From Acidobacteriota bacterium (GTDB lineage Bacteria; Acidobacteriota; UBA890; WLXD01): a stretch of 63,408 nucleotides of DNA. Under the pieces are notes generated by a model. The model saw nothing but the letters and a program-made list of their open reading frames with translations. It searched no databases and had not been told where the DNA came from. The translations under genes were made by a program, and so were the position numbers. Of the stretch, positions 27,346 to 52,332 are shown piece after piece; within the stretch, counting starts at the first letter, position 1, and each line of letters opens with the position of its first letter. Location: NCBI GenBank assembly GCA_012103255.1, contig WLXD01000003.1, positions 78,576 to 141,983 of the forward strand, given 5' to 3'.

Positions 27346-27350
27346 ATAAC

Positions 27351-30913: not shown

Positions 30914-30920
30914 GCGCCAC

Positions 30921-35459: not shown

Positions 35460-35506
35460 CGTATCCAAAACTCGCGGACGCCCCCTGGATGGGCAGAGGT
35501 GATCCC

Positions 35507-35881
35507 GTGGATGAACCGACGAGGCGGGAACGCGACGTTCTCGACATTCTCTACCGTGCCGAGGAAGCCACTGCGGAGGGCGTGCGGAAGGCGCTTCGGA
35601 TCAGCAACTCCGCGACGCGCACGCTTCTCGCGCGGCTCGAGGAGAAGGGACGCGTCGAACGTGTCCGCGAGGGCCGCCGCTTCATCTACCGGGCGGTTCC
35701 GCGAGTGGACACCGCCGCCCGGGACGAGGCGGACCGACTCCTTGAGGTCTTCTTCCGCCGGTCACCGCGAGCCGCGGTGCTCACCATGATGGACGCCGCA
35801 AGGGACCGCATGAGCGAGACCGAGTGGGCGTCGCTCCTCGACGAGGTCCGGCAGGCGCGGGCCGAGAAGAAAGAATCATGA
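35507..35881 (+). CDS. BlaI/MecI-family transcriptional repressor (second copy)
   Basis: 124 residues from the GTG at 35507, chosen for the GAGGTGA site 5 bases upstream. The winged helix has TRRERDVLDILYRAEEATAE, GVRKALRISNSATRTLLARL and the wing EGRRFIYRAVPRVDTAARDE. The C-terminal helix pair gives dimerisation. The stop overlaps the M56-fusion ATG (ATGA). It is a diverged paralogue of the regulator at 2575 with its own, different dyad. Confidence 0.86.
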   Translation: MDEPTRRERDVLDILYRAEEATAEGVRKALRISNSATRTLLARLEEKGRVERVREGRRFIYRAVPRVDTAARDEADRLLEVFFRRSPRAAVLTMMDAARDRMSETEWASLLDEVRQARAEKKES

Positions 35882-37782
35882 GTTTCCTTTCAACGCACTC
35901 GATGGCCGTGGTCGCTGCGCTCTTGAACACTTCGGTCAAGTTGGCGGCGATCGTCCTCGTCGCGTTCCTGGCGGCGCGCTTCGTCGCGCGCCGGGCACGC
36001 CGGCTGGAACCCTTCGTGTGGGTGACCGCTGCAACTGTTTCCCTGGTCACGCTCGTGGTCTCCGGGGCCCTCCCCGGCTGTCATCACTCGACCGCCTATC
36101 TGACCGGCAACGATGTGCATCCCCTGGAGGCGTGGTCGCTGTTGGCACACCTGTGGGCGGCCGTCGGCGTGGTGTTCGCCAGCGCGGTTGTCTTCCAGAT
36201 TGTGAGCCTCGAGTGGCGCTTCCTCCGAGCAGCCAGACCAGGAAACAGGATCGCCGCGTGCGTTGCCCGAATCCTGGCCTCCCGGAACGGCCTCCGACGA
36301 GTCGAAGTGCGGATGTCCGAGGAGATCTCGACGCCATGCACGTGGGGCGTCCTTCGCCCGCGGGTCCTGATCCCGGTCGACGCCCGACATTGGCCGCCGG
36401 AAGTCCTGGAATCGGCCGTGCGACACGAAGTCGCCCACATCGACCGAAACGACTGGCTAGCTGCGCTCTCACTCCGATTCGCCGTGGTCGCGCTGTGGTT
36501 CAACCCGTTTGTGTGGTGGCTCGAGAGGGTGGCGCGCGCCGCGCTCGAGCGCGGGGCCGATGACCGGGTGCTGCGCTCCGGAATCGGCAACGTGGACTAC
36601 GCAGAGCATCTGCTCTGGTTGCGAGCCCGCCTGGACGGGCGGCCGGCGATTGCCGCGGGACTCGCTCTACCCCTCTGGTCGGAGACTCGGTTCGCGGGGC
36701 GCGTCCGGGCGCTCCTGGCGCACCGGCCTCCTGCGCCTGTCGACGGCCGCATTGTAGGAACCCTGACCTTGGCCTTCGTCGCGTTCACCGCAGTCGTCGC
36801 GTCCCCCCCGTGGGTGGAAGCTCGCCAGTTCGCCGGCGAACGTGTGGCGAGTCGTGCCCAGGAGCGCGAGACCATCCTCGTCACCAACCGGAACAGCGAT
36901 TCGGTAACCCTTATCGACGGGGCGACCTTCGAAGTACTCACCACACTCGATGTCGGGCAGGGTCCACATGAAGTGGTGGTGCACCCGACCGGTCGTTTCG
37001 CGTACGTCTCATCCTACGACCGTCCGGAGGCGGGCGAAGATTCCATTTCGGTGAGCGTGGTCGATGTTGCGTCGCGGTCGATACGCGAGCACTTCTACGT
37101 GCCGGGACGCCGGGGGCTGCACGGCATTGCGATCTCGCGCGACGGCGACCGGTTGTGGCTGAGCGCGGAGAACGAACGCGCCGTGCTCGAACTCGATACC
37201 GCGACCGGTGCCGTGACGGCCGAGTATTCGACCGGCGGACAATGGACCCACGTCGTGGTCGCCTCGTCCGACGACGAGACCCTCTATGCGGCTGACATGG
37301 CGCGAGGCGAGGTGGCGTTCGTCGATCGGCGCACCTCCGCGGTGCGCGTCGTGTTGTCGGGAGAGGGCGCGGAGGGCATGGCTGTCTCACCGGACGGTGC
37401 GACTCTCTGGGTGGCGAATCGTGCGGAGAACACTATTGCCGTGCTCGACGCTGCGACGGGCGCACTCATCGCGAAGATCCCAACTCAGGGCGACTTCCCG
37501 GTGAAGTTGCGGTTCGCACCCGACGGCTCCGAAGTCTGGGTGGCGAACAATCGCACCAACTCCCTCGCCGTGATCTCGCCGGAGACAATGGAGGTGCTCC
37601 GGGTTGTTGGAATCCCCACCCAGCCCTTGGGGATCGGGTTCTCCACCGACGGCCGCTGGGTCCTCGTATCCGTACCCCGTCTCGATGAACTCCTCGTCGT
37701 CGATCGCGCTTCGGGCCGCCTGGAGCACCGGGTCCAGGTCGGCGCCAGCCCCGACGGAATCGCCGCCTTGAGGATCCGCTGA
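35878..37782 (+). CDS. M56 membrane metallopeptidase fused to a YVTN beta-propeller sensor
   Basis: 634 residues from the ATG at 35878. N-terminal helices include MAVVAALLNTSVKLAAIVLV and a second near 60. The zinc motif HEVAH is at 183-187, followed by ALERGADDRVL, which supplies the next ligand. A last helix (about 292-310, GTLTLAFVAFTAVVASP) leads to an extracytoplasmic YVTN propeller from about 330: ILVTNRNSDSVTLIDGATFE, GPHEVVVHPTGRFAYVSSYD, and EGMAVSPDGATLWVANR. In BlaR1 the sensor is a penicillin-binding domain; here a propeller replaces it. It is coupled to the BlaI gene. Confidence 0.82.
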   Translation: MSFLSTHSMAVVAALLNTSVKLAAIVLVAFLAARFVARRARRLEPFVWVTAATVSLVTLVVSGALPGCHHSTAYLTGNDVHPLEAWSLLAHLWAAVGVVFASAVVFQIVSLEWRFLRAARPGNRIAACVARILASRNGLRRVEVRMSEEISTPCTWGVLRPRVLIPVDARHWPPEVLESAVRHEVAHIDRNDWLAALSLRFAVVALWFNPFVWWLERVARAALERGADDRVLRSGIGNVDYAEHLLWLRARLDGRPAIAAGLALPLWSETRFAGRVRALLAHRPPAPVDGRIVGTLTLAFVAFTAVVASPPWVEARQFAGERVASRAQERETILVTNRNSDSVTLIDGATFEVLTTLDVGQGPHEVVVHPTGRFAYVSSYDRPEAGEDSISVSVVDVASRSIREHFYVPGRRGLHGIAISRDGDRLWLSAENERAVLELDTATGAVTAEYSTGGQWTHVVVASSDDETLYAADMARGEVAFVDRRTSAVRVVLSGEGAEGMAVSPDGATLWVANRAENTIAVLDAATGALIAKIPTQGDFPVKLRFAPDGSEVWVANNRTNSLAVISPETMEVLRVVGIPTQPLGIGFSTDGRWVLVSVPRLDELLVVDRASGRLEHRVQVGASPDGIAALRIR

Positions 37783-37830
37783 TCGGACTCGACCGCCTCG
37801 CGCTCCACGCAAAACTCCTCACGTCCGAAG

Positions 37831-37848
37831 GTGCTACAAATGTCACAG
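37831..37848. promoter_or_regulatory. Third site resembling the BlaI dyad
   Basis: GTGCTACAAATGTCACAG agrees with the operator core GTGTTACAAACGTAACAC at 14 of 18 positions and lies across the TPR gene's start codons. It suggests that the TPR gene belongs to the same regulon. Confidence 0.4.
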
Positions 37849-39384
37849 CTTGCTCGCCTCAGCCTGATCGTCGTAGCAACGCTCGGACTGCTGACCCCGG
37901 CGCCGGGCACCGCACAAGCTCCCGCGCGATCGCTCGGTGTCGTCACACTCGATCCCGGCCATGCCCCGGCGGCCGCCGTCGCATCGTTTCACCTTGGCAT
38001 GGCGGCGCTGTACGACTTTGCCTTCGTTGAGGCTCGCTCAGCGTTCGCCGACGCCCAGCAACAGGCGCCAGGCTTCTGGCCACCCCTGTGGGGCGAGGCC
38101 ATGACGTACTTCGATCCGCTGCTCGGCTCAACGCAGCCTTCCTTGGCTCGACCGCTGCTCGATCGCGCCGCGCAGCTGCGCGAGAGCGCTGCCCCGAACT
38201 CGGTCATGGAGGCGCTCCTCGGCGCAGCACTCGCTCTATTCCCCGACTCGGGCACCACCAACTCCGACGCCTTCCACGACGCGGTCGCACTGGGCTTGGA
38301 GGACTGGCCGAACGATCCGGATCTCACCGCGTTTCGCTCACTGGTCCTACTTGCGGAGGCCTCGGAGCTGCAAGGTTCGGAGTCGGATCGTGCCAGGATG
38401 CGCGCGGCGGCTGCGATCGAAGAGTCCCTGGCCGCGGCGCCGGCACACCCCGGACTGCTGCACTTTCTCCTGCACAGCTACGACGACCCGGTGCACGCGC
38501 CCCTGGGCCTCCGCGCCGCGCGCGCCTATGCCCAGGTCGCACCCGGGTCCTCACACGCGCTCCATATGCCGACGCATATCTACGTCCAGACTGGCGACTG
38601 GGCGGAGGCGAGTCGCCTGAACCGTGAAGCCTGGAACCTCTCCGTCGCATCGGCAGAGCAGTTCGGCAGGGAGGTGCTGGACTTCCATGCGCTGTACTGG
38701 CTCCTCTACGCCGACCTCCAGCGCGACGATCGGGTATCGGGCCAACAATGGATGGAGACTATCCGGCAGCACCGCGACCCCGCCGTGGTCGACAACGGCC
38801 ATGTGCACTGGCTCCTGATGACGGCCCGTTGGGTTGTGGACGGAGATCAGTGGGACGAACGCCCCCTTCTCACCGAGTCGACGTCGGTCGCTCACGACCT
38901 CCTGCAATCCACCGCGCTGGTGGCTCAGGGAGTGGGTGCCGCCCGCCTCGGCGAGTTCGCGGAGGTTGCCGCGGTCGCCGACGTCCTTCGCAGTCTCACA
39001 GAGAAGAACCGCCGCGACGGGAACGCGGCTTGGGCCGACATCCTCTCCGTCTCGCTCGGGGTAGTCGAGGGAGCAGGAGCCCTCACCAACGGGCGCGTCG
39101 AGGAGGCCGTCACCAAACTCTCTGTGGCAGCGGAGCACGAGAGTCGGCTCCCGCTACCCAACGGACCGCCCACTCCGGCCCAGCCAGCCATGGAACTCCT
39201 CGCCGAGGCCTTGCTCGTGGCAAACCGCCCCGCCGAGGCCATCGAATGGCTGGAGCGGAGTCTCCTTCGAACACCGGGCCGCCGCCGAGCCGCCACCCTC
39301 CTCGCCACGGCCCACCGCCTCGATGCATCCTCGAGGAGGCCTGACGCCGGAGATGGCGTTGCGCCGTCACGGCAGCGTCTCTGA
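37840..39384 (+). CDS. Secreted TPR-repeat protein
   Basis: 514 residues from the ATG at 37840, which has GAAGGTG upstream; a GTG at 37831 is an in-frame alternative. Signal peptide: LARLSLIVVATLGLLTPAPG. TPR-like helical pairs follow, with the characteristic segment SSHALHMPTHIYVQTGDWAE near residues 236-255 and AIEWLERSLLRTPGR near the end. It is probably periplasmic and acts as a protein-interaction scaffold. It is the last gene before the island and may answer to the BlaI/M56 pair. Confidence 0.72.
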   Translation: MSQLARLSLIVVATLGLLTPAPGTAQAPARSLGVVTLDPGHAPAAAVASFHLGMAALYDFAFVEARSAFADAQQQAPGFWPPLWGEAMTYFDPLLGSTQPSLARPLLDRAAQLRESAAPNSVMEALLGAALALFPDSGTTNSDAFHDAVALGLEDWPNDPDLTAFRSLVLLAEASELQGSESDRARMRAAAAIEESLAAAPAHPGLLHFLLHSYDDPVHAPLGLRAARAYAQVAPGSSHALHMPTHIYVQTGDWAEASRLNREAWNLSVASAEQFGREVLDFHALYWLLYADLQRDDRVSGQQWMETIRQHRDPAVVDNGHVHWLLMTARWVVDGDQWDERPLLTESTSVAHDLLQSTALVAQGVGAARLGEFAEVAAVADVLRSLTEKNRRDGNAAWADILSVSLGVVEGAGALTNGRVEEAVTKLSVAAEHESRLPLPNGPPTPAQPAMELLAEALLVANRPAEAIEWLERSLLRTPGRRRAATLLATAHRLDASSRRPDAGDGVAPSRQRL

Positions 39385-39412
39385 GCTTCGCGCCATATGG
39401 CGGAGGGAAAAG

Positions 39413-39463
39413 TGGCGGGCCCGACGGGATTTGAACCCGCGATCTCCGGCTTGACAGGCCGGC
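39413..39463 (-). repeat. attL-like tRNA-Asp 3' fragment
   Basis: 51 bases with 50 identical to the 3' part of the intact tRNA-Asp at 52134-52211 (from encoded CCA through the anticodon loop). The one difference (C for G at 39420) lies in the acceptor stem and would give a mismatch with the intact 5' strand. The 5' half of the gene is absent here, so this is a detached fragment left by site-specific integration. Confidence 0.85.
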
Positions 39464-39520
39464 TCTTGCAAGATTCTTAAGTGCCTATGAAGTAGCCATT
39501 TTTTGGCGGTCGCGAAATCC

Positions 39521-39552
39521 CGTGTAGCCGCCGTGTAGCCGCCGTGTAGCCG
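39521..39552. repeat. 11-bp tandem repeat next to attL
   Basis: CGTGTAGCCGC is repeated about 2.9 times, 58 bases inside the left att repeat. Short repeats in this position can be arm-type integrase binding sites; each unit also puts TAG stops in successive frames. Confidence 0.55.
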
Positions 39553-39659
39553 AAGACGATAGCCCTGTCGGCCAGGCTCGGTCCACTCGATACCTCGCAA
39601 AAGCTCCCGTCGAGGTGTTCTTGCAGCAGGGTGGGCTAGCCACGGTAAGGAGCACGTCG

Positions 39660-40241
39660 ATGGCAGAGCAGAACGATCGTCTCACTGATGAACTGGAGTA
39701 CGAATATCCGTTAGAGGCGCCCTACTCCCTGGAGGGCATCCCGGTCGAGGAAGTCGAGGGCGACGAACTGGACGTCGAAGAAGTAGTCGCCGACCTCAAC
39801 ACGTTCGTATCTGAGGCAGACGTCGGGCGAGGCGAGGGGGCTGATGCAGAGAGCCTAGTCGGTGTCGCAAGGGCAGGTGAGAACGCCCACGGCACGTGGG
39901 GCACGATCTGGGTCTGGAACGGTTCGAAGTGGGTTCGGAGGGGATTCACTTTGGAACCGCGGTCCAGTGTCGGCAAAGGACCCATTCCGCTAGGCGTCTA
40001 TCGCTTCCGGCGCTGGGTATCGAAGAAACTAGGGAAGACACTCAGATTGGCCAACGTCCCGGGCTTCACGGACATCCTGGTACACGTTGGCAACGTCCAA
40101 TCCGAGACGGCTGGCTGTATCTTGGCCGCCAAGAAAGTCGATAGCACCAAGAACCCGCGCCGGCTCATCGACAGCCGCTCGCTGACCGACTGGCTGTACG
40201 ACAACTGCCCTGCCGGCCGGATCAAGATCATCAACGTGTAG
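39660..40241 (+). CDS. DUF5675-like protein
   Basis: 193 residues from an ATG with TAAGGAG upstream. The N-terminal third is acidic and low complexity (LEYEYPLEAPYSLEGIPVEE). The C-terminal part fits DUF5675: PIPLGVYRFRRWVSKKLGKT, LRLANVPGFTDILVHVGN, and SETAGCILAAKK. The conserved His and Cys in HVGN...GCIL recall L,D-transpeptidase- or peptidoglycan-active phage proteins, which is only a family resemblance. It is the first island gene after attL and is followed by a large inverted repeat. Confidence 0.7.
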   Translation: MAEQNDRLTDELEYEYPLEAPYSLEGIPVEEVEGDELDVEEVVADLNTFVSEADVGRGEGADAESLVGVARAGENAHGTWGTIWVWNGSKWVRRGFTLEPRSSVGKGPIPLGVYRFRRWVSKKLGKTLRLANVPGFTDILVHVGNVQSETAGCILAAKKVDSTKNPRRLIDSRSLTDWLYDNCPAGRIKIINV

Positions 40242-40250
40242 GTCGGGTCG

Positions 40251-40299
40251 CCGATCAACGAGCCCGCCGCTAAAAGCCGCGGGCGGGCGCGTTGATCGG
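40251..40299 (+). terminator. Large inverted repeat after the DUF5675 gene
   Basis: CCGATCAACG (40251-40260) pairs with CGTTGATCGG (40290-40299), and the inner GC-rich arms also pair in part. It begins 10 bases after the stop. No clear T-tract follows, so it may be a terminator or simply an RNA-stabilising hairpin. Confidence 0.45.
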
Positions 40300-40764
40300 A
40301 GCCCAGGGCGAGGTTCGCACGCTGCCGCTAGCCCCCGTCACGCCACACCCCGACAGGCGGATCGAACCGTGCAGACCGACAAGATTGGGATCGCGTGAGC
40401 TACATGGCCGCGACACTGCGTTCGAAGTCACCGGCTAGAGCGCTTCAGTCGTCGGCAGTTAGCCATCCGGCGCGCCCGCGGGTAATCAGGACGTCGGGCG
40501 AACTCTGCCACCTGTCAGTATCAGGACGTCGTTGATGCAGTCAACAACGCGACGGGGAAGTCGGTCTGCAAGAAACATTGGCGGGCATAAGAAACACATC
40601 CACCAGGACACCCACTAGTCACACGCGTGACCGTGGACGGCGCTGGTGGGCGTTCGAGTTCTTGGCGTGGATTCGGTCCGTGCGACGCGCGCGAGGCAAA
40701 GCCACGGAGCGCCGGGCAAAGACCTTGAGACAAGGCGCCAGAGCTAGGGACGCACGGCGGACGT
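40300..40764. other. Intergenic region without a convincing gene
   Basis: About 465 bases between the DUF5675 hairpin and the end of the JAMM gene. Short frames exist on both strands but have no ribosome-binding site, no recognisable domain and mixed codon use. I see no repeat or RNA in it. Confidence 0.5.
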
Positions 40765-41229
40765 CTACCTGGACTCCGCGCCGATCTCGACGGTGACCTC
40801 GACGAGGTCATCAAGCGGGTCTCGTTCGTACGCTCGCACTTGGACGCCACCAGACAGCCCAACGACAAGGTGCACGCAGTCCCATCGGGACGAGAAGTGC
40901 TTGTCAATCTCCGAGAAGCCGGCGTCTCCGTTGGGATGAGAATGATAGATGGCGACGATGTATTCCCCGGCTGCTGCGATCTCCTGTTCTGCGACGAATT
41001 GCGCATGCGGGTCCGCCAGGAACCGGCAGGTTGCGTCTGTGGCGACGTTCGGCAAGGGATGGCAGCGCGTCGCGATCCGCAACTCCTGCCCAGAAAGCAG
41101 ACCCACGGTTTCTAGCGGAGCCGCAGCCCGCGCCTCGCGTACGACCTCAAGTGCCGTCGCAGCTTCGATGCGGAGCCTACGCAGGGAGGTACACCATGTG
41201 GGCCGGCTCTGGCCGAAAATGGCTGTCAC
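40765..41229 (-). CDS. JAMM/MPN-domain (Mov34/PAD-1) metallopeptidase
   Basis: 154 residues from a GTG. The full JAMM signature is present: Glu40 in LETVGLLSG, then H96-S-H98, seven residues, S106, two residues, D109. Bacterial JAMM proteins cleave isopeptide-like bonds on ubiquitin-like (ThiS/MoaD/CysO-type) proteins or adducts, often in defence islands. Here no E1/E2 or ubiquitin-like gene is adjacent. The start lies 53 bases inside the upstream carotenoid-oxygenase-like gene, so translation is likely coupled. It is the last gene of the operon. Confidence 0.85.
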   Translation of the reverse strand: MTAIFGQSRPTWCTSLRRLRIEAATALEVVREARAAAPLETVGLLSGQELRIATRCHPLPNVATDATCRFLADPHAQFVAEQEIAAAGEYIVAIYHSHPNGDAGFSEIDKHFSSRWDCVHLVVGLSGGVQVRAYERDPLDDLVEVTVEIGAESR

Positions 41230-42709
41230 CCCAGGTCAGGAGTTCGGCGGACACCGCATGCGCGACCATGCGCGTGAGGTCATCGGCTCGATATAGCCGC
41301 AGCCCTATCTCTGGCGAGAAGGTGGCGACATGGTCGCGACCCTTCTCACCGGCGATCATCGAGAATGCCATGGGCTCCGAGTAGCTGATGTGGGATCGTG
41401 CGGCGTCATAGTCCACCTTGAGGTCCCGCGAGTCGAACCGGATCAACGCGGACGGCACGTAGCGGATCTGCGAGTAGTCCGGAGTGATCCGCTCGTACGC
41501 CGCTGCGATGTGCCGTGGAAGTAGGCGCGGCTCGAATCCGGCGAACGAGCCGAACAGGCGCTCGCCGGTTGAATCCAACCCGAGGTTGATTGGAAGCCAC
41601 GAATGTCCAAGCGAAGCGTTTCCGTAGTCGTACGAGCGAGAGAACGTCTTCAGACTCGAGGTTCCCCCGCGTCGCTCGTAGCGGATCACGGTGCCGAAGT
41701 TCAGCGGTTGCGTTATGGCGCCGGAGTAGTGCTCCGCGACCTCCTGGGGACTCTCTGAGTAGACATTCGGACCGTGAGTCTCCTCGGAGACGTCGGCTTG
41801 CTTGTAGTTCGCAAACAGCACGAAACCATCGCCCGAACTGTTGCTCACCTCCAGATGGGACAGCGCTATCCCTTCAAGAGCATCGAGACCGGGTAAGAGC
41901 TCGGCTTGCAGTGAATTCTGACTCTCGTCGATACGAACTGTCCAGATAGATGAGAAAGGCATCGGAAGCACGGAGTGCTCCTCGTCACTATCGTGCGCGT
42001 CGAGTGACTCGAGCACCGCGCCCGTCCTGAGGAGACCCACGTAGCGGGCGCCGTTCTCTTCGAAATAGAACGCGGAGTGGAAGTTTGCGCTGCATCGCTC
42101 GCTATCCTCAGGCGGTGGTTGCAACTTCCACGAGCGCACGTCTCCCGACTTGGTGTCCAATCCAAGCAGCCTCAGGTCGTCTGCTTCGACGGGCCGGCCT
42201 GCTTGTTCTCTGCGTAGCAGCGACTGATGGAAGTAGGCGCAGCGGTGGTCCAGATCCCAGGCGAAGTGAGACGTAGAACTGATCTGCGGCGCCCCCGGTT
42301 CGGGGACGCAGGACGCAATCACCCTCGAGGCGCGGAACTCCTCCAGGTCGATCTCTAGCGGCGCTCCGAACAAGAGATTTGTCGTCCAGACATGGGAACC
42401 TGCGACGTTGATCCCGTGGTTCGGCTGAGTGATATACCTGGAATAGGAGCCGTGGGCGAGATCGATGTCTGCCGGCCACAGGTAGCCGACGTCTCTTCCA
42501 GAGGGATCGACGTCGAGGAACGTGGCCCGGACTCGGCCCGGGCGACCAGGGCGAAGTTCGATACGCAATAACTCTGCCTGAGAGTCGTGCCATCGCCGGA
42601 AGACGCTACGGGCTTTCGCCCTTCGGGACGTTGCGACCAGTAGCGATCCCGCTGCGTCCTCCGGGATTTCTCCTCGAACGAACAGCTCAACTTGTTGGTG
42701 CGCTGTCAC
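41177..42709 (-). CDS. Divergent carotenoid-oxygenase (RPE65/CCD) superfamily-like protein
   Basis: 510 residues from the GTG at 42709, with TAGGG upstream and 10 bases after the preceding stop. The N-terminus VELFVRGEIPEDAAGSLLVA mirrors the family's V-x-G-x-IP-x-x-L-x-G start; QPNHGINVAGSHVW and LEIDLEEF recall the PNTNVV and PYELDP segments. Four His stand at family-like spacing: H148 (TSHFAWD), H211 (NFHSAF), H285 (LSHLEV) and H504 (EPAHMVY), which could bind Fe(II). Substrate and reaction are unknown. Linkage to a JAMM peptidase is unusual. Confidence 0.55.
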   Translation of the reverse strand: MTAHQQVELFVRGEIPEDAAGSLLVATSRRAKARSVFRRWHDSQAELLRIELRPGRPGRVRATFLDVDPSGRDVGYLWPADIDLAHGSYSRYITQPNHGINVAGSHVWTTNLLFGAPLEIDLEEFRASRVIASCVPEPGAPQISSTSHFAWDLDHRCAYFHQSLLRREQAGRPVEADDLRLLGLDTKSGDVRSWKLQPPPEDSERCSANFHSAFYFEENGARYVGLLRTGAVLESLDAHDSDEEHSVLPMPFSSIWTVRIDESQNSLQAELLPGLDALEGIALSHLEVSNSSGDGFVLFANYKQADVSEETHGPNVYSESPQEVAEHYSGAITQPLNFGTVIRYERRGGTSSLKTFSRSYDYGNASLGHSWLPINLGLDSTGERLFGSFAGFEPRLLPRHIAAAYERITPDYSQIRYVPSALIRFDSRDLKVDYDAARSHISYSEPMAFSMIAGEKGRDHVATFSPEIGLRLYRADDLTRMVAHAVSAELLTWGDSHFRPEPAHMVYLPA

Positions 42710-42719
42710 ACTGCGCGCC

Positions 42720-43550
42720 CTAGCTAGCCTTTTCCTCGTCCACGCCAGGCCCCCGGACTGCCTGCTTCTGTGCGACACCCGCAAACCTACGCATGTAGTA
42801 GTGCTGCCCGAACAAGAACAACTCGCCCTCCGCTTGGAGGTCCAAGTAGGGATGCGACACCGTCGTCGGGGTGGTCGTCAGCAGCGTTTCCACGTGGATC
42901 GTGTCCTTCCGGAGCCCTCCGTAGAGAGGCTTGTCCATCCATTCGATGGCCGTCGTGGGGAAGCTCAGGCTCATGCAGCGAGCTTGCATGACGGCCGGTC
43001 GAGCCAGGTCCTTCGATGGGAAGGTAGGGGCGTAGCTGTAGTTCTGGACGATATTGCCCGCAGCGAAGTTCCGGACCATGTGCTCCAGCGTCGTTGGAAA
43101 GCATCCAGCGTCGTGCACGAGTAGCCATTCGACCATCTGGCGCAGCGTATAAAACACCCCATAGTTGAAGAACTCGACCCTCTGAATCGGGTCCAACTTC
43201 TCAAACTCGACCAGATCGTACAGCCCTTTCGAGCCGAGCTGGTTATGTACCTCGTCAATGACGGTCGAATCCGTGATCTGGATCCGAGAGTCGGATGGGA
43301 TTGGCCCCATGAGATTGAACTGATTGCCCACCCCAGCCATGACCAGCCTTCCCAGGCGGGTCATACGTTTCCCATCGAAGATGTGCACCAAGTCCTTGGC
43401 AACGACATCGGCGGCGTTGTCCTTGGCAAACACCTCTGGCAGGGCGCTAAAGTCCCAACTCTTGCTCTCCAGATGTTCGACTTTCTCGGTGACGTCTTTG
43501 AGGATCGACGCGAATTCTGGCCCTCCAACGGAGGCCCGGCGAATCGCCAT
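42720..43550 (-). CDS. Unknown cytoplasmic protein, first gene of the JAMM/oxygenase-like operon
   Basis: 276 residues, no signal peptide and no transmembrane segment. Features seen: an N-terminal helical part with DVTEKVEHLESKSWDFSALP, a strand-rich middle with NQFNLMGPIPSDSRIQITDS, and a C-terminal HPYLDLQAEGELFLFGQHYY. I recognise no domain. Only 10 bases separate it from the oxygenase-like gene, so co-function with that protein and the JAMM peptidase is inferred from the operon only. Confidence 0.65.
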   Translation of the reverse strand: MAIRRASVGGPEFASILKDVTEKVEHLESKSWDFSALPEVFAKDNAADVVAKDLVHIFDGKRMTRLGRLVMAGVGNQFNLMGPIPSDSRIQITDSTVIDEVHNQLGSKGLYDLVEFEKLDPIQRVEFFNYGVFYTLRQMVEWLLVHDAGCFPTTLEHMVRNFAAGNIVQNYSYAPTFPSKDLARPAVMQARCMSLSFPTTAIEWMDKPLYGGLRKDTIHVETLLTTTPTTVSHPYLDLQAEGELFLFGQHYYMRRFAGVAQKQAVRGPGVDEEKAS

Positions 43551-44190
43551 TCAATATTGCCAGCCCCCTGCGATCGGGCGGTACTCAGATCTCAGCCAGT
43601 CTCGATACGCGGTCATCCTTCAACCTCCGGCCATACGGTTCCATGTGCTTACTTAAGGAAACCGTCCAAAGCTGGTTTTTCGAGGGGCACTCGAGAAAAA
43701 CCGAGACCTTCTGTCAGTGACCGCCGCCAGAACGCTGGTGAGCGAGAGGTTTCCGACGCGATTCAGCGGCACATCGGACGAACACACGGAGGCGGCACGG
43801 CGGCTACACAGCTCCTCCTGGACCTCAGCATTCACCGTGTTCATCGAGAATCGCGGTCTTGTGGCGTACGGCTGCGTAGGCCGGAATTCGCGTACCTCTG
43901 CACCAGGTGAGTGCGCTACAGCTACGCTCGTTCCTTCCGGCCTGTGGCGTGTCGATACCTAGCTAGATTCCACGAACAGCGATTTCTAGCTTCGCGACCT
44001 CTTCTAGCCCATAGCCCGGAGGCCACAGCTTCAAATCCTGTCCCCTCTACTCCGAAGGCCCCGTCGTGCCGCGCTTCCCGCGGCAGCGGCGGGCGCTATT
44101 CGCGTCCGTACGCTGAGGCTCCGGGCGCGGGCCACGACTAGCTCGAGGCGAGCGGCCGCGCTACGGGCCGCCAAGGACGTCTCTGAGGCT
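43551..44190. other. Long intergenic region in the island
   Basis: About 640 bases upstream of the three-gene operon. The promoter of that operon must lie here. Short frames on both strands look random. The only structured element is a tRNA-3'-like fragment near 44014-44054. Confidence 0.5.
44014..44054 (+). other. Possible decayed tRNA 3' end
   Basis: GCCCGGAGGCCACAG-CTTCAAATC-CTGTCCCCTCTACTCC resembles a variable loop, T-arm and acceptor 3' strand, but the T-stem has a C-C mismatch and there is no 5' half. It may be an older att remnant, suggesting a composite island. Confidence 0.25.
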
Positions 44191-44979
44191 CTAGAGGATA
44201 TCGATCTTGATGTTCGTACCGTTTGTAAGGTCGGTCGGTGTGATCTTCCCGTTCTCGATCAGCGCCTTGAGGACATCCGGCGTGACGTGCACACCGTGTT
44301 CCCTAAGCTGTTCGAGCGCCAACTCGGAGGCTTCCAGCGCCTGTTCCTTCAGCTTGACGTCCATCTTGGAGTGTTCGACATAGTTCCTGGTCCACTGCCC
44401 AAGGATCGTGAGCGCGTAGAGAGCCGCGACACCGCCCCAAAAGGCCAACGTTAGCGAGACCGGTGACGCTTGCTGGAGTTCGTCCACGTAGACTCCAGAT
44501 CCTGAGAGCCCAATGCGTGGACGCCGGCGTGCAGTCGTCCCAGTTCTCGCGACGTTGACGAAGACTTGCCTCAGCTCGCCGTACCCGAGGGCCGTCGGCG
44601 AAACAGCGGCAGTAATCACCCCGTGAGCCAACTCGGTGAGGGAATCTCTGTGTCGCATCACGAGGTCGCGCCGGTAGTCGACCTCGTGGCTCCCGAAGGT
44701 CCACTGATGCTTAGGAACTCTTTGCTCCGGCTCGTAGAGTACCTCGGCCCGCCCAGCGCTCAGTTGAGATCGAAGCCAATCGAACCTCGCCGAGTTGATT
44801 TCGGCGGACACGAAGCCCCGCACGAAGAGCCCATCGAGCTCGCGAGCGCTGAGATCTGACACCAGGCTGACGGCCTGGTCACGAGCCAGATTGGCTTGAT
44901 AGAGCCAGAGTCCGTTCAGAAACGCGAGCATATTCAAGGTCCCTAGCACCATGTCCGCGTCGCGCTCGGCGAAGGTCAT
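44191..44979 (-). CDS. Single-pass membrane protein of unknown function
   Basis: 262 residues. A short hydrophobic stretch lies near the start (MLAFLNGLWLYQANLA) and a clear helix near 185-205 (SLTLAFWGGVAALYALTILG), followed by a cytoplasmic helical tail with KLKEQALEASELALEQLREH. The C-terminus ends in a strand NGTNIKIDIL. No family is recognised. It lies in the island between the JAMM operon and the DUF4238 gene. Confidence 0.6.
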   Translation of the reverse strand: MTFAERDADMVLGTLNMLAFLNGLWLYQANLARDQAVSLVSDLSARELDGLFVRGFVSAEINSARFDWLRSQLSAGRAEVLYEPEQRVPKHQWTFGSHEVDYRRDLVMRHRDSLTELAHGVITAAVSPTALGYGELRQVFVNVARTGTTARRRPRIGLSGSGVYVDELQQASPVSLTLAFWGGVAALYALTILGQWTRNYVEHSKMDVKLKEQALEASELALEQLREHGVHVTPDVLKALIENGKITPTDLTNGTNIKIDIL

Positions 44980-44997
44980 GCGAAGTTCGAACGGCAG

Positions 44998-45060
44998 TTA
45001 CCGAAAGACCTTCCGGTGCTCGAGCTCCGGAGGGCCTTTGTCGTCGTAGTAGGTCGTCAT
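44998..45060 (-). CDS. Possible 20-residue leader peptide
   Basis: An ATG at 45060 opens a 20-codon frame (MTTYYDDKGPPELEHRKVFR) that stops 18 bases before the start of the membrane-protein gene. It has a GAGAG upstream. It could be a leader, a small protein or chance. Confidence 0.25.
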   Translation of the reverse strand: MTTYYDDKGPPELEHRKVFR

Positions 45061-45404
45061 CAGATACTCTCGTTCGCCGCGCGGCTTTTCGGCCAGCGAT
45101 CAATGGTCCGGTCGTGCCGATGGTCGGCCGCAGCCGGCTACCGGAAACAACCATGATTGGGTCGGAATTGCGACCCGGGAGCGCTACCGCGAATGCAGCC
45201 GTGTCGGATGTGGACCCAGCCACCCGAGCAGGTCGGTCTCACCAGCCCGTACGCCTGGACACGGGTTTAGAGACCCGAGCGTGCCCGCAGCTGGAGGACG
45301 GGCCCTACCTTGGGAGACTCGCAATGGGCTACGTGGCCGCCGCCTCGGCTGACAATGACGATTGTCGAATGCTGGCTCGCTAACACCGCATTCGATCGGC
45401 TAGC
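44998..45404. other. Intergenic region upstream of the membrane-protein gene
   Basis: About 400 bases with no convincing long gene. Besides the short frame at 44998-45060, frames on both strands lack domains and ribosome-binding sites. Confidence 0.45.
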
Positions 45405-45875
45405 CTACGTCTCGAAACAGGGGCTGCCGTTCACTATGAGGCCGGGGTCGCCTGAAACTAGCAACGCCTCCTTCGCCCGGCAGCTGAGGGGCGAGCCGTC
45501 TAGAAACGTAGCGCGAGGTAAGAGATTGAACGTGAACATCCCGCGAGCAGCCGGAGTTCGGACGAGTAGCGTGGCGATGAAGGCCCTAAGTTCGTGACCC
45601 TCGCGTGCGGTGATGACTTCTCCGCGCCGCGCTCGTGCAATCACCGGTGCTGCGGCGGACTCGATGGCTCCAAGTACAAGTTCAGCACCTTCAGGGTGAT
45701 CCCCGCCTTCGACATCCGCGTCTATGGCGTAGAAGTCGCGGCGCACGGCGGCGTTGCGCGGGCTGACCTGGAACGTACCGCCCGTCTCCAAGTCGTGTGC
45801 CCACAAGGCTCCGTCGTGTCGAAAGCCATCCAGATAGAAGGAAGGCAAGACATGATGCCGTCGTGCGGTGGCCAT
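45405..45875 (-). CDS. DUF4238-like protein, shorter than usual
   Basis: 156 residues from the ATG at 45875; upstream codons in the frame have no homology texture. The N-terminus RRHHVLPSFYLDGFRHDG is the HH-x3-FYL-x-GF start of DUF4238, followed by LWAHDLETGGTFQVSPRNAA and AFIATLLVRTPAARGMF. The family is usually 250-350 residues, so the C-terminal part appears missing. DUF4238 proteins occur in defence-rich islands; function is unknown. Confidence 0.7.
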   Translation of the reverse strand: MATARRHHVLPSFYLDGFRHDGALWAHDLETGGTFQVSPRNAAVRRDFYAIDADVEGGDHPEGAELVLGAIESAAAPVIARARRGEVITAREGHELRAFIATLLVRTPAARGMFTFNLLPRATFLDGSPLSCRAKEALLVSGDPGLIVNGSPCFET

Positions 45876-45985
45876 GGATTCGAGTCTACATGCCTCGTAG
45901 CGGGGATGAGCCGCTCGTGCGAATTGCTGCGGCGGACCTTCAAGCACAACGTTCTGAGGTAGTCGAACTCTCACCGGGGTCGGTG

Positions 45986-46011
45986 ATAAGCCCTTTGTTC
46001 ATCGGGCTTAT
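45986..46011. repeat. 8-bp inverted repeat
   Basis: ATAAGCCC (45986-45993) and GGGCTTAT (46004-46011) flank a 10-base loop, in the gap between the DUF4238 gene and the 369-residue membrane protein. No T-tract; a weak terminator or operator. Confidence 0.4.
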
Positions 46012-46216
46012 GTGACTTGGTGTTTTGTGTTGATTCGGACAACATCAGTCTGGACCGGTCGTTTTGAGGGCAGGTTGGTACCGTTTTGGTACCTATTGAA
46101 GGTCCCAAGTGACGCGGGTCCGAGGTAGCGGCGGAGTGCCCTGGGACTCGGCTCGGTTAGGCCTATGCACCGCATTCCTGGCGTGCCTCGGTTCACTCCA
46201 CCACGAGCCTAGCCTG

Positions 46217-47326
46217 TCACGTCTTGCTGTAACTCGATGTCCGCAACCGCCAGGGCAATCTCAGCCATGGCTGAGCCCTAAAGAGGATATGAAACTCGAC
46301 GGCGTACGCGCCAGGCGGGAGATCGAGAGGCGCCGTCAATCCGAACCTGCCCTGGACACCTGAACTCCCAACTGCGTTGTATTCGTGAACGGAATCGGCC
46401 ACCGTCAAGCCCGGCGCACTCACGCTGAGTGTTACGTCCAGGGCGACCGAATCACCGTTGTGGAGGAGCCCGTAGGCGACCTCTGCGTGAGTGCCACGAT
46501 TCAATACGAGCGGCTCGGGGAGGTCGAGCTTCATTCGGGTGGCTACTAGCATGCTGTCGGCTGTTGGGGCGAAGCTAACCAACATAGCGGTAAGCATCAA
46601 AGGTAGCTGAAGCACTACGATGCTCTTAATGGATGTGTGCTTCCATCGCGTGCGGAACCACTTCACGGCTCGGCTCTGGGTGAAGAAATCGAAACGAATC
46701 AGGAAATACGCGGAGCCCGCCGCCGCGAGGGCGAGCGCGAGGATGGAGTAGTTCTGCGTCGTGGATAGGCGGTCGCTAACCCACAGCCCGATGATGATCG
46801 GCAGCGACCAAAAGACGATGCGCAGCGGAACGCGGACCCGAGCGCTGCCTTCATCAAGGTTCAGTCGTTCTGTGATCTCGCCAAGCTCGGCTATGAGCAC
46901 CCGCAGTTCCCCCGTGGCGCCAGGTCCATCCATGGACTCGCCTTCGGGCACAGACGCCCGGATCCGCTGAATGGCTGCAAGGTGCGGAGCGCGTTCGCCA
47001 AACCAGAACGGCCCGCTGACCCTCCGCTCAAGTTGTTGCGTTGCCACCTGCACCGCTTCGTGCAACAGCCCCCGCCTTGTTTGGCGTAGCTCCTCGGAGA
47101 GCGCGCCGAGGCGCTTCCTGCTTGCCTCTCCGGGCTCAATCGCGAGGCTTTTGAGTCGCTCCATGTAGCGCGCTGCGAGGCGTTCGGTGCGCTCTCTGAG
47201 AAGTCCATCAAGCTGGGGAGCGAGTGCGAGGATGTTCGAACTGTCTTCGCGCAGGCCGTCGAAGGCATCGTTCACTTGTTGTACTAGTAGGGCAGTCTTC
47301 GGAAGAGCTTCTTCGGTCGTTCCCAC
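46217..47326 (-). CDS. Membrane protein with coiled-coil N-terminus and extracytoplasmic tail
   Basis: 369 residues from the GTG at 47326, chosen for a perfect AGGAGG six bases upstream. The N-terminal 170 residues are helical (LLVQQVNDAFDGLREDSSNI, LSEELRQTRRGLLHEAVQVA). Three hydrophobic helices follow (IVFWSLPIIIGLWV, SILALALAAAGSAYFL and VVLQLPLMLTAMLVSF), and then a beta-rich domain of about 100 residues with EVAYGLLHNGDSVALDVTLS. The family is unknown. It is divergent from the TrlF-like ATPase gene. Confidence 0.6.
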   Translation of the reverse strand: MGTTEEALPKTALLVQQVNDAFDGLREDSSNILALAPQLDGLLRERTERLAARYMERLKSLAIEPGEASRKRLGALSEELRQTRRGLLHEAVQVATQQLERRVSGPFWFGERAPHLAAIQRIRASVPEGESMDGPGATGELRVLIAELGEITERLNLDEGSARVRVPLRIVFWSLPIIIGLWVSDRLSTTQNYSILALALAAAGSAYFLIRFDFFTQSRAVKWFRTRWKHTSIKSIVVLQLPLMLTAMLVSFAPTADSMLVATRMKLDLPEPLVLNRGTHAEVAYGLLHNGDSVALDVTLSVSAPGLTVADSVHEYNAVGSSGVQGRFGLTAPLDLPPGAYAVEFHILFRAQPWLRLPWRLRTSSYSKT

Positions 47327-48008
47327 AGCGATCCTCCTGACGGATGATACCGGTCCGCACCTTAACCGACTTGACCGCGCCAATGCGATCCCCCGCCGAG
47401 GGAAGTAGCCGCGCACCGTCGATGCCGTGGCATGGGCAGGTCACGCGTCGACGGACTGCTAGTAGAGACGGGGGAGCCTCCCCTCAGCCAGCAAAGCTGC
47501 TAGCTCAAACGCCCCCAACCCCCTTGCTAGCAACGTTGCTAGCTGGAACGGCCCAAAATCCCCGTGGAAACTCTTGCGTAGATGCCGACACGGATTGGTG
47601 GGTCTTTTCTGGTCATTTGAACGGTGTCCGAAAAGGGTAGTGAAAAAGCGCCCCGTTTGAGCGCGCAAACATTGACTCTTGGGTTGGCGTTTCGAGTGTC
47701 TTTTTAGGATTACCTTTATGGACAATCACCGAGCGCGCTTGGCGCGGTTCCGCCCCCTGCCTCTCCACTGCAGGCCGGATTCGTGCTCGACAATCATCAG
47801 GACTTCCGCGGCCATCGTGCCGTGGTCCACGCCGGTCTGCATCGAGCAATTTCGGAATCCGGTCGGTCTCGAGGTTCTCCTCCGTGGAGTGCTCGGACGA
47901 CCATCCCACAACCTAGTTGCCGGATCGTGACCTGAAACGACACTCGGGGGCCCGTCGGGCGGGTGTGGCAGTCTCTCCGAAACAAGGGGACCAACGCGAG
48001 GAGTCGGA
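47327..48008. other. Long divergent intergenic region with GCTAGC repeats
   Basis: About 680 bases between the membrane protein and the TrlF-like gene. It must hold both promoters. GCTAGC palindromes occur at 47499, 47526 and 47538, the last two within a TTGCTAGC-AACG-TTGCTAGC direct repeat. No convincing gene is seen. Confidence 0.5.
47499..47543. repeat. Three GCTAGC palindromes
   Basis: GCTAGC at 47499-47504, 47526-47531 and 47538-47543, with extended TTGCTAGC identity between the last two. Possible regulator binding cluster. Confidence 0.45.
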
Positions 48009-50993
48009 ATGACAAAGAGCCTCAAGCTGGGCTCGATATGGCATCGATGGGATCCGCACCTTCATGGGCCAGGCACGCTCATGAACGACCAGTTCAGGGG
48101 CGATGACCCGTGGGGCGAGTACTTCGACGCGATCGAAGCCGCCGACCCGCCGATCAAAGCGCTTGGGATCACGGACTACTACCTCACCGACGCGTATGAG
48201 CACGTGGTCAAGGCGACCAAGGCAGGGAGGCTCAGCGGGGTCGAGTTGGTATTCCCCAACGTCGAATGTCGTCTCGACGTAGGGACCGGTAAAGGAAAGT
48301 GGGTCAACGTCCATCTCCTGGTCAGCCCTGAACAGCACGATCACCTCCTCGAACTAGGTCGGTTCATGGCACGCCTTAGCTTCCGGGCGCATGACGACGA
48401 GTTTGCCTGCAAGCCAGAGGAACTGATTAGGCTTGGTAAGGCGGCCGATAGCTCCATCACGGATGATCGTGTTGCACTGCGGCACGGTGCCGGCCAATTC
48501 AAAGTGAGTTTCGATCAGCTGCGAGAGGAATTCGACAAGTCCGGTTGGGCGCGCCGAAACCTGATAGTTGCAGTGGCGGGGAGCAGCACGGATGGAACGT
48601 CCGGAGTGCGGTCTCCCGCCGACACGACGATCCGTGAAGAAGTTGAGAAGTTTGCCTCGGTCATTTTCGCAAGCAGCCGAGCACAGCGAGACTTCTGGTT
48701 GGGACGTGGCAACGTCAGCATCGAACAGCTATGGCAGCGCTACGATGGTCCGAAGCCGTGCTTGCATGGCTGTGACTGCCACCGTCAGCCCAGTGTCGCC
48801 GCTCCAGATGACTCGCGGTACTGCTGGGTAAAGGGTAGGGTCGACTTCGACTCGCTTCGACAGGCCTGCATCGATCCGGAGAATCGTGCCTTCGTCGATG
48901 CGAACCCGCCTGGCGCCGGTCTCCCGTCCCAGTCCATCGCCGCGGTCACGATTGCGCGTGCAGACTGGGTCGTAACGCCCGCCCTGGCCCTAAATCCGGG
49001 CCTCGTCGCCGTGATCGGACCACGTGGCTCGGGCAAGACCGCGCTGGCCGACATCATTGCGATGGGAGCCGACGCGATTCGAGAGCGTCCTGCCGCTAGC
49101 ACGACATATCCGAGTTCGTCCTTTCTCGCTCGAGCAGGAACGCTCGTAGGAGATGCGGAAGTCACTCTGGAATGGCGGTCGGGCGAGGTATCCGAACGCG
49201 CTTTGGACGGCACGAAGACACCAGAGGTCGCGTATCCGCGGGTGAGGTACTTATCCCAACAGTTTGTAGAGGAGTTGTGTTCCGCGACCGGTGTTACAGA
49301 TGAACTACTGCGCGAAATCGAACGCGTGGTGTTCGAATCACATCCCGTCGGCGAACAGGGTGGCGCGCTGGACTTCGGCGAACTCCTTGAACTGCGGGCT
49401 TCCCGGCACCGAGCTTCCCGACAGCGCGACGAGCAAGCAATTGCGACGCTCTCCGAACGGATCGGAACCGAACTCGAGAGAGATCGGGAGCTGCCCGGTC
49501 TTGAGCGCGCCGTGGTCCAGAAGAGCAAACAAATCGAGAGGTTGGACAAAGACCGGGCCAAGTTGGTGTCGAAAGGGGCCGAAGCGCGAGCCAGTCGGCT
49601 CACGGAGGTGGCAACGGCGGCAGAAAAGGTGCGAGGCCATGTCCGGAGACTCTCGAATCAAGAACAAGCGTTGCTCGCTCTACAGGATGAGGTCCGAGAT
49701 CTGCGGCAGAACACTGCCCCGGAGATGTTGCGTGAGTCCAAGGAACGCCACGCAGCGAGTCAGATGAACCCTCAGGAATGGGAAACGTTCAAGATCGACT
49801 ACACCGGGGATGTCGACGCACAAATCAGCCTGCTCCTCGACAAGTCGCGCGAATTGGCCCAGGCCAGGAAAGGCGTCGCGCCGCCTTCGGACTCCCCCGA
49901 GAAACCCCTCGATGAGATGGGGGAAGAGCTCACGAAGATCCCTCTGGCGCGCCTAGAAACAGAGATCAACCAACTTCAGCTGCAAATCAACGCGGACTCG
50001 GCAGCACAGCGGCAGTTTGCCGCGCTGACAAAGAGGATCGCTGCAGACTCCGCGGCGCTTCAGCAACTCGAAGCGAAGCGCGAGGAAGCCAAGGGAGCCA
50101 AGGAGCGTGCCAAGCAACTCCAGGTGGAGCGTGAGCGAGCGTACCAACGCGTGTTCGAGGCGATCGTGGCGGAAGAGCAGGTTCTCAAAGACCTGTACGC
50201 GCCCGTAGTCCAACGCGTACAGGAGGCCTCGGGAACGCTAGGGAAGCTGACCTTCACAGTCTCGCGCACAGCGGACGTAAGCGGCTGGTCACGTGTTGCG
50301 GAGCAGGAACTTTTGGACTTGCGGCGCCAGGGACCCTTCAAAGGATCGGGGCAGTTCGAGGCCCTGGCCGAGGCAGCGCTCAAGCAAGCCTGGGAACAAG
50401 GAGACGCATCTCAGGTGGCAGAGGCCATGCGGGTTTTCAGGAACAGCTACCAAGGAGACTTACTGGAGCACGCGAACGTGCATCCGAGCGGTCAGCCCGA
50501 GTACCGCGCTTGGTTGAAGAGCTTCGCTGGCTGGTTGTTTTCGACGTCGCACATCGAGCTGGCATACGGCATCAGCTACGAGGGAGTGGATATTCGGAAG
50601 CTGTCACCGGGCACTCGCGGCATCGTCTTGTTGCTGCTCTATCTCGCCCTGGACGATACCGACGACCGGCCGTTGATCATCGATCAGCCTGAGGAGAACC
50701 TCGATCCCAAGTCTGTCTTCGACGAGTTGGTGGGACTCTTCATTGCCGTCAAGGCCAGGCGGCAGGTCATCATCGTGACGCACAACGCCAACCTAGTCGT
50801 AAACACCGACGCGGACCAGATAATCGTAGCGAGCTGCGGTCCGCACGCCGCCGGAGAACTACCTCCCATCTCGTACGACGTAGGAGGAATCGAGGAGAGC
50901 GCGATTCGAACCGCAGTCTGCGACGTCCTGGAGGGCGGCGAGCACGCGTTTAGGGAGCGCGCGCGCCGACTCCGAGTCCACCTGCGCCGCTAG
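48009..50993 (+). CDS. TrlF-like protein: PHP-type N-terminus plus SMC-like AAA/ABC ATPase
   Basis: 994 residues. The N-terminus has PHP-phosphoesterase-like elements: WDPHLHGPGT, ALGITDYYLTDAY and VNVHLLVSP. The ATPase follows: Walker A GPRGSGKT at 337-344, a long coiled coil (about 460-720), then KLSPGTRGIVLLLLYLALDD as the signature region, Walker B PLIIDQPEENLD near 885-897 and the switch VTHNANLVV. This is the OLD/SMC-like arrangement used by many anti-phage ATPases, here with a possible nuclease or phosphoesterase head. It probably forms a pair with the next gene. Confidence 0.85.
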   Translation: MTKSLKLGSIWHRWDPHLHGPGTLMNDQFRGDDPWGEYFDAIEAADPPIKALGITDYYLTDAYEHVVKATKAGRLSGVELVFPNVECRLDVGTGKGKWVNVHLLVSPEQHDHLLELGRFMARLSFRAHDDEFACKPEELIRLGKAADSSITDDRVALRHGAGQFKVSFDQLREEFDKSGWARRNLIVAVAGSSTDGTSGVRSPADTTIREEVEKFASVIFASSRAQRDFWLGRGNVSIEQLWQRYDGPKPCLHGCDCHRQPSVAAPDDSRYCWVKGRVDFDSLRQACIDPENRAFVDANPPGAGLPSQSIAAVTIARADWVVTPALALNPGLVAVIGPRGSGKTALADIIAMGADAIRERPAASTTYPSSSFLARAGTLVGDAEVTLEWRSGEVSERALDGTKTPEVAYPRVRYLSQQFVEELCSATGVTDELLREIERVVFESHPVGEQGGALDFGELLELRASRHRASRQRDEQAIATLSERIGTELERDRELPGLERAVVQKSKQIERLDKDRAKLVSKGAEARASRLTEVATAAEKVRGHVRRLSNQEQALLALQDEVRDLRQNTAPEMLRESKERHAASQMNPQEWETFKIDYTGDVDAQISLLLDKSRELAQARKGVAPPSDSPEKPLDEMGEELTKIPLARLETEINQLQLQINADSAAQRQFAALTKRIAADSAALQQLEAKREEAKGAKERAKQLQVERERAYQRVFEAIVAEEQVLKDLYAPVVQRVQEASGTLGKLTFTVSRTADVSGWSRVAEQELLDLRRQGPFKGSGQFEALAEAALKQAWEQGDASQVAEAMRVFRNSYQGDLLEHANVHPSGQPEYRAWLKSFAGWLFSTSHIELAYGISYEGVDIRKLSPGTRGIVLLLLYLALDDTDDRPLIIDQPEENLDPKSVFDELVGLFIAVKARRQVIIVTHNANLVVNTDADQIIVASCGPHAAGELPPISYDVGGIEESAIRTAVCDVLEGGEHAFRERARRLRVHLRR

Positions 50994-51112
50994 GAACAGT
51001 CTTGGACGCGGGTTCCAGACAAGCGCCTGGGGCGGATCCGCTTCAGCGCGGTTCCGGTTTCTCGCAGACTGGGTCCAGTGCGCTACCACCTCACGGACAA
51101 TCGCTTCACAAG

Positions 51113-52201
51113 ATGACAAAACCCGCGTCGGAGTCAGAGGTCTACCTTCAGAGGATCGCTCGGGACTCGTTCTTGACGCTGTGGGGCTACCCGAACCTAT
51201 TCCGCGATCAGGGCATCGCGGCGCGGAGAGAGGGAAAGGAGCTAGTTGACCTCGCAGTCGTGTTCGGGAACATAGTCATCTTGTTCTCAGACAAGAGCTG
51301 CGCTTTTCCCGGCTCCGGCGACCTCGACCGAGACTGGGCTCGTTGGTATCGGAGAGCAATCAAGAAGTCGGCTGAGCAGCTCTGGGGAGCCGAGCGCTGG
51401 ATCCGTGACCATTCCGATCGCGTCTTCGTGGCCCCCCGCTGCGAAACCCGAATTCCAATCCGCCTTCCGGCAGCAGATGCCGTTGCGTTCCACCGCGTCG
51501 TAGTTGCGCGTGATGCGACAGGCCTGCGCGCGAGAGCAACAGGTGGAAGCGGCAGCCTGGTCATCCGTCCGTCGATCGAGGGCGATGAGCACGTAAGACC
51601 GAGGTCCGAAGGTGGTGAGCGGTTCGCCGTAGGCCAGGTGGACTCGTCGCGAGGACTGATTCATGTCCTGGACGAGGTGTCGCTGGATCTTGTCCTGCGC
51701 ACGCTCGACACAGTTACCGACTTCTGTGCGTACTTGGCGCGCAAGGAGAACTTCATTGTCTCCGGAAGGTTGCACGGGTCGGCGGGCGAGGAAGACCTGC
51801 TTGGGTACTATTTTCGGGGTCTCGGGCCTGATGGCCACCACGACTTCACCCTTCCCGACGGAGCCGACCAACTGTGGGTTCAGGAAGGAAACTGGGAACG
51901 CTACGCAGAGAGCCCGGAACGGGAAGCGCAAGTCGCGGCCGATCAAGTCAGCTATGTGTGGGACGACATCATTGAGCGATTCACCGTCCATAAGATCCGA
52001 GGCACACACGATTTCGACAGCGGCCAAGGCCTCGCTGAAACGGAGGTGGTGTTCCGCCTCCTCGCGCGCGAATCACGTGCGGACGCAAAAACGCCGGAAA
52101 CCCAAAGCTTTGAAGGGTTTCCGGCGGATTTAATGGCGGGGCCGACGGGATTTGAACCCGCGATCTCCGGCTTGACAGGCCGGCGTCGTAACCAGGCTTG
52201 A
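51113..52201 (+). CDS. Nuclease-like protein, 3' end cut off at the island border
   Basis: The frame is 362 codons from the ATG at 51113. The N-terminus LTLWGYPNLFRDQGIAARRE, GKELVDLAVVFGNIVILFSD is a pattern I associate with restriction-endonuclease-like proteins of defence islands; a PD-(D/E)xK site is inferred, not proven. After RLLARESR (about 52,080) the frame crosses the tRNA terminator hairpin and the antisense of tRNA-Asp, so the last 40 residues are not native. The gene is probably truncated. It follows the TrlF-like gene by 119 bases. Confidence 0.6.
   Translation: MTKPASESEVYLQRIARDSFLTLWGYPNLFRDQGIAARREGKELVDLAVVFGNIVILFSDKSCAFPGSGDLDRDWARWYRRAIKKSAEQLWGAERWIRDHSDRVFVAPRCETRIPIRLPAADAVAFHRVVVARDATGLRARATGGSGSLVIRPSIEGDEHVRPRSEGGERFAVGQVDSSRGLIHVLDEVSLDLVLRTLDTVTDFCAYLARKENFIVSGRLHGSAGEEDLLGYYFRGLGPDGHHDFTLPDGADQLWVQEGNWERYAESPEREAQVAADQVSYVWDDIIERFTVHKIRGTHDFDSGQGLAETEVVFRLLARESRADAKTPETQSFEGFPADLMAGPTGFEPAISGLTGRRRNQA
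52087..52126 (-). terminator. Strong terminator of the tRNA-Val/tRNA-Asp transcript
   Basis: A perfect 12-bp stem (CGCCGGAAACCC / GGGTTTCCGGCG) with an 11-base loop, followed on the minus strand by TTTTT. It is 8 bases beyond the tRNA-Asp CCA. Confidence 0.85.
52134..52184 (-). repeat. attR-like repeat within tRNA-Asp
   Basis: The 3' 51 bases of tRNA-Asp, repeated at 39413-39463 with one mismatch. The identity runs from the CCA through the anticodon loop into the 5' anticodon stem. Confidence 0.85.
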
Positions 52202-52211
52202 CCACGGCCCC
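52134..52211 (-). tRNA. tRNA-Asp (GTC)
   Basis: Reads as a full cloverleaf: acceptor GGGGCCG/CGGCCCC with discriminator G and encoded CCA, anticodon arm GCCGG-CCTGTCAAG-CCGG with anticodon GTC, and T-loop TTCAAAT. It serves as the integration site of the island. Confidence 0.93.
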
Positions 52212-52256: not shown

Positions 52257-52332
52257 TGGTGGGCGGTACAGGGCTCGAACCTGTGACCCCCTGCTTGTAA
52301 GGCAGGTGCTCTCCCAGCTGAGCTAACCGCCC
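52257..52332 (-). tRNA. tRNA-Val (TAC)
   Basis: Cloverleaf with acceptor GGGCGGT/ACCGCCC, discriminator A and encoded CCA, anticodon loop CTTACAA between CCTGC and GCAGG (anticodon TAC), and T-loop TTCGAGC. It lies between pdxJ and tRNA-Asp, probably in one transcript. Confidence 0.95.

Follow-up and report, generated by a model that had tools for sequence, protein, structure and literature searches.

A recombinase-free 12,721-bp island between tRNA-Asp and its displaced 3′ half, probably the remnant of a tyrosine-integrase insertion

The window, a 63,408-nucleotide stretch of the genome of an Acidobacteriota bacterium, carries an intact tRNA-Asp(GTC) gene at 52134–52211 and a tRNA-Val gene at 52257–52332, both on the minus strand (ARAGORN). 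The 3′ 51 nucleotides of the tRNA-Asp gene, 52134–52184, recur on the same strand at 39413–39463, downstream of the tRNA, with one mismatch (C at 39420 versus G at 52141). Nine genes lie between the two copies and encode, in order, a DUF5675 protein, a Prok-JAB metallopeptidase, proteins of 535, 276 and 262 amino acids, a DUF4238 protein, a 399-amino-acid protein, a TrlF-family ATPase and a phrog_18195-family protein. No recombinase, relaxase or transfer gene was seen among the profile matches in this interval.

The gene nearest the far repeat encodes the DUF5675 protein (208 amino acids, 39615–40241, plus strand; PF18925, 5e-18; phrog_1501, 4e-11). The 262-amino-acid (44191–44979) and 399-amino-acid (46217–47416) proteins, both encoded on the minus strand, match no family and, judged by eye, are probably membrane-bound. 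Between them lies the gene for the DUF4238 protein (45405–45974, minus strand; PF14022, 3e-17), which appears to be shortened, because it covers only positions 1–111 of the 281-position profile. The TrlF-family AAA-like ATPase, by contrast, is full length (994 amino acids, 48009–50993, plus strand; NF045780, 5.6e-198), with residues 8–988 aligning to positions 2–943 of the 944-position profile. It is followed by the phrog_18195-family gene (51002–52133, plus strand; phrog_18195, 2e-52), which is truncated at its C-terminal end. A PHROG scan of the island returned only DUF5675 (phrog_1501), matches of the JAB protein to tail-protein profiles, DUF4238, weak ATPase matches and phrog_18195.

Among the matches listed, relatives of the TrlF-family protein share at most 59% identity with it and are scattered over many phyla, which fits horizontally moving cargo, and related ATPases are present in defence collections. 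TrlF was described in an operon of Photorhabdus that has been linked to temperature restriction, with no demonstrated role for TrlF itself (PMC7554251). The Photorhabdus locus and the island both encode a full-length TrlF-family protein; they differ in that TrlF is accompanied in the island by a phrog_18195-family gene. We considered TrlF and phrog_18195 as a conserved pair and rejected this, as a phrog_18195 homologue was absent from 80 other TrlF loci; the gene upstream of a Xanthomonas phrog_18195 homologue likewise gave no TrlF match.

Three overlapping genes on the minus strand, spanning 40765–43550, look like an operon: a 276-amino-acid orphan comes first (42720–43550, no family match), then a 535-amino-acid orphan (41177–42784, no Pfam, NCBIfam or PDB match) and last the Prok-JAB metallopeptidase (154 amino acids, 40765–41229; PF14464, 7e-18). 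No relative of either orphan turned up among 395 further genomes from the phylum; in addition, none was found for the 276-amino-acid protein in GTDB contigs (pattern scan) or plasmids, or for the 535-amino-acid protein among viral contigs. Structure models of the two orphans were useless (mean pLDDT 32 and 33). Spaced histidines and a C-terminal stretch in the 535-amino-acid protein hint that it may be a very divergent carotenoid oxygenase, a resemblance supported by no profile.

A sequence-only reading of this DNA had proposed that the 51-nucleotide repeat marks tRNA-directed integration. The repeat and its single mismatch were confirmed by blastn (E 4e-21 in the window), with two copies only in the genome. 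The second-best match to it in the window extends over just 20 bp, and its 40-nucleotide core occurs at only two sites in the whole 4.8-Mb genome with up to three mismatches allowed; a chance origin of the repeat is excluded. Rfam scored 39423–39476 as a partial tRNA (32.7 bits versus a gathering score of 29). Partial tRNA copies also occur in genomes without islands, and the region to the left varies among congeners anyway, so that the far copy could be viewed as a stray tRNA pseudogene or duplication with no island inserted. What makes this very unlikely is, in part, the form of the copy: it comprises nucleotides 28–78 of the tRNA, from the 5′ side of the anticodon stem through CCA, and thus has the exact 3′ end, begins at the anticodon stem and lies on the correct side and strand. 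The sequences on either side of the copy, described below, also argue against it.

Because the repeat begins at the anticodon stem, its core is shaped like an anticodon-loop tyrosine-integrase site. In this core, CCGGC-CTGTCAA-GCCGG, a 7-nucleotide spacer separates the two halves of a 5-bp inverted repeat, and the anticodon loop is one recognised crossover site in tRNA genes (PMC4383910). The loop of the near core lies at 52172–52178, within tRNA-Asp on the minus strand, and that of the far core at 39451–39457; equivalent positions are separated by 12,721 bp, and the core sites at both island ends are intact and identical. The only mismatch between the copies sits in the acceptor stem of the displaced one. 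Since the restored tRNA-Asp with its flanking bases is identical across 82 nucleotides to that of a congener (G002), the mismatch arose in the displaced copy, as expected if the displaced half is not under selection. Just inside the far end, 57–89 bp from the core, are three exact tandem copies of the 11-mer CCGTGTAGCCG (39520–39552), the only such triple in the window and one not seen among 395 further genomes from the phylum; a search for arm-type repeats elsewhere found none. Their likeness to arm-type sites in a lambda-like attP makes these 11-mers possible integrase arm sites.

Comparison with relatives indicates which flank is native. In G002 and in G008, a genome of the same order and another family, a T-run follows the intact tRNA-Asp, and a conserved motif lies about 50 nucleotides beyond it. 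In the window, this motif was found at a nearly equal offset outside the far repeat, at 39325–39412, where the local alignment score was 40 against the G002 flank (reached by 0 of 2,000 random windows) and 27 against the G008 flank (rank p 0.0055). Sequence immediately within the near repeat scored only 14 and 16 against the same two flanks (p 0.98 and 0.74). The original 3′ flank of tRNA-Asp thus appears to have been displaced to the far end, directly beyond the far copy, and what adjoins the tRNA today would be foreign DNA. The homologous native flank is only about 90 bp long. In both relatives, gene order beyond it is unlike that of the window, and the tRNA-Asp flanks of three further genomes (G003, G004 and G005) match neither side of the island. 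The motif could be a member of a small family of dispersed or terminator-like sequences; the 39325–39375 segment recurs with 90% identity over 51 bp at one other place in G002, on contig 38 (1910–1960).

A terminator-like hairpin with a U-run (52087–52131, minus strand; z −3.98) now follows tRNA-Asp. It was absent after tRNA-Asp in all five relatives compared, and with the native flank located at the far repeat we rejected it as the native tRNA terminator and regard it as island-borne. To the right, the DNA is syntenic with congeners, at 74% identity across 8–10 kb. The 3′ side of tRNA-Asp borders a variable region: the roughly 20 kb left of the island (19500–39412) is host-like in composition and is not syntenic with either of two genomes from the same genus. 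With no shared gene order in congeners to the left of 39.4 kb, placement of the left boundary depends on the repeat, the short flank and composition.

Composition changes between the repeats. In 1-kb blocks, GC content was 60.9% in the island versus 64.0% in host DNA (Mann–Whitney p 1e-6), and at 3-kb resolution the reduced GC was roughly limited to the island interval. The tetranucleotide distance to host reference contigs was 0.186 for the island, whereas nine left-flank pieces of equal length gave 0.095–0.115 and the right flank gave 0.105. The tetranucleotide profile was noisy when resolved at 3 kb. This foreign composition and the native flank directly beyond the far copy both stand against a stray pseudogene. 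Taken together, the geometry, the empty-site-type flank in two relatives and the composition back the proposal of tRNA-directed integration.

The absence of a recombinase from the island, also part of that earlier reading, held in profile and open-reading-frame scans. PF00589 has four matches in the whole genome and none within the island: two look like XerC/D, one is a short fragment on contig 6 and one is a 449-amino-acid integrase in a separate island on contig 1, the only tyrosine integrase in the genome that is clearly of mobile type. The latter lies near dnaX (locus L034, about 575–590 kb on contig 1, 4745–6094 within the locus), adjoined by a gene for a helix-turn-helix protein. No tRNA-Asp-type core was found near it. 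PF00239 has no match anywhere in the genome, and Pfam detected no recombinase domain in the island's predicted proteins or in ten further candidate open reading frames.

Reading the gaps by eye in six frames gave one qualification, the only recombinase-like trace in the island: an 18-codon stub, MTRKDPPIRVGIYARVST, at 47560–47613 on the minus strand, with unrelated sequence directly after it. It reads like the typical beginning of a serine recombinase and is probably what is left of such a gene. The exact string YARVST was met a single time in 1.44 Mb of other loci, within a recombinase-like frame, and for this reason the stub is probably real. It could not be scored by hmmscan, which gave no match; tblastn of the stub against plasmids returned nothing, and DNA searches with its surroundings gave only two weak matches, in DNA without a recombinase motif. 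Directly after the stub, at 47425–47560, is a repeated palindromic stretch containing GCTAGC (CTAGCAACGTTGCTAG and similar).

As the sole recombinase-like trace, the stub raises the idea that a serine recombinase inserted the island, which we regard as highly improbable. The stub sits mid-island, about 4.5 kb from the tRNA, and, to our knowledge, a 51-nucleotide block of tRNA identity is not the form taken by a serine attB/attP pair, which also counts against such an insertion. Moreover, the use of tRNA genes as targets is known only for integrases of the tyrosine family (PMC4383910), so the stub does not explain an insertion at tRNA-Asp.

The description of the element as degraded is supported by the stub, the shortened DUF4238 protein and the truncated phrog_18195 gene. 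The last of these aligns with homologues of 463–539 amino acids up to about residue 361. Its homology ends near 52084, some 50 bp from tRNA-Asp, and the homologues run about 130–175 residues further. The missing C terminus, with the hairpin directly after it, suggests a deletion at the tRNA end. Integrase genes usually adjoin an att site, and we therefore infer that the integrase was lost in this deletion, together with the C terminus of the phrog_18195 protein. The truncation of phrog_18195 could, however, be older than the integration, and no relative was found to carry the island, either with an integrase or lacking one.

Given the repeat geometry, the native flank outside the far copy and the composition shift between the repeats, we consider it probable that the interval is a 12,721-bp tDNA island that was inserted at tRNA-Asp by a tyrosine integrase and later lost its recombination genes, leaving a remnant like a cis-mobilizable element (CIME). 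In this model, a mobile island with a tyrosine integrase would have recombined into the anticodon loop of tRNA-Asp; its attP would have brought the 3′ 51 nucleotides that restored the tRNA at 52134–52211, and the host's own 3′ half would have been pushed 12,721 bp away, to 39413–39463. The island would afterwards have lost its recombination genes, most likely through the deletion beside the tRNA that also took the end of phrog_18195, and what remains would be a block of cargo genes that has no recombinase and is bordered on either side by an intact core site. Such a remnant would move only if a compatible integrase were supplied in trans or if another element integrated next to it. Mobilization in trans is possible because the cores are intact; no compatible integrase is visible in this genome.

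A related possibility is that the element was non-autonomous from the outset, never having had its own integrase, and was moved in trans by the tyrosine integrase of another element. The intact, identical core sites and the persistence of candidate arm-type repeats at one end are consistent with this, and the sequence-only reading had entertained it. We consider it unlikely, as the only clear mobile-type integrase of the genome belongs to the contig 1 island, and the core is found nowhere else in the genome, so that there is no tRNA-Asp-type att site beyond these two. Searches turned up neither another copy nor a relative of the island, and its interior shows signs of decay. The same reading's suggestion of a satellite-like element found no support: phage satellites of the PICI kind have their own integrase and packaging, replication or capsid-interference genes, and none of these was seen here.

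The reading that we favour, a decayed tyrosine-integrase island, places it close to two described classes. Islander-type tDNA islands combine an intact tRNA and a displaced 3′ fragment in one replicon, and the Islander configuration and orientation filters place that fragment downstream of the tRNA in the same orientation (PMC4383910). The island described here is alike in side and orientation, shares the anticodon-loop crossover site and, at 12,721 bp, falls within the Islander length range of 2 to 200 kb. It is only a decayed relative of this class, because Islander requires an integrase inside or overlapping the interval (PMC4383910). The TIGER/Islander resource demands one likewise (PMC12424338), and thus neither would list the island. 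CIMEs, by comparison, have lost their integration and transfer genes and kept attL and attR (PMC5704250), both of which are also true here. CIMEs derive from an ICE or IME and move by accretion with another element; the island resembles them in its ends and gene content, and no neighbouring active element was seen beside it. It is best read as a degraded element that has kept both putative att sites, like known CIMEs.

The island is of a known kind, a familiar worn-down mobile island that is real and well bounded. It offers a case, with exact boundaries, of an island whose ends persist although its integration machinery is gone, a type that finders relying on integrases are built to discard, and it records the use of tRNA-Asp as an integration site in a lineage that has been little sampled. 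It also isolates a compact set of cargo genes, several of whose proteins belong to no known family. That the orphan operon forms an undescribed defensive or metabolic system, on a recombinase-free island still movable by a foreign tyrosine integrase, is a speculative and rather doubtful proposal. This cargo operon, comprising the 276- and 535-amino-acid orphans and the JAB peptidase, is the novel remainder of the island, and it is here that the remaining interest lies.
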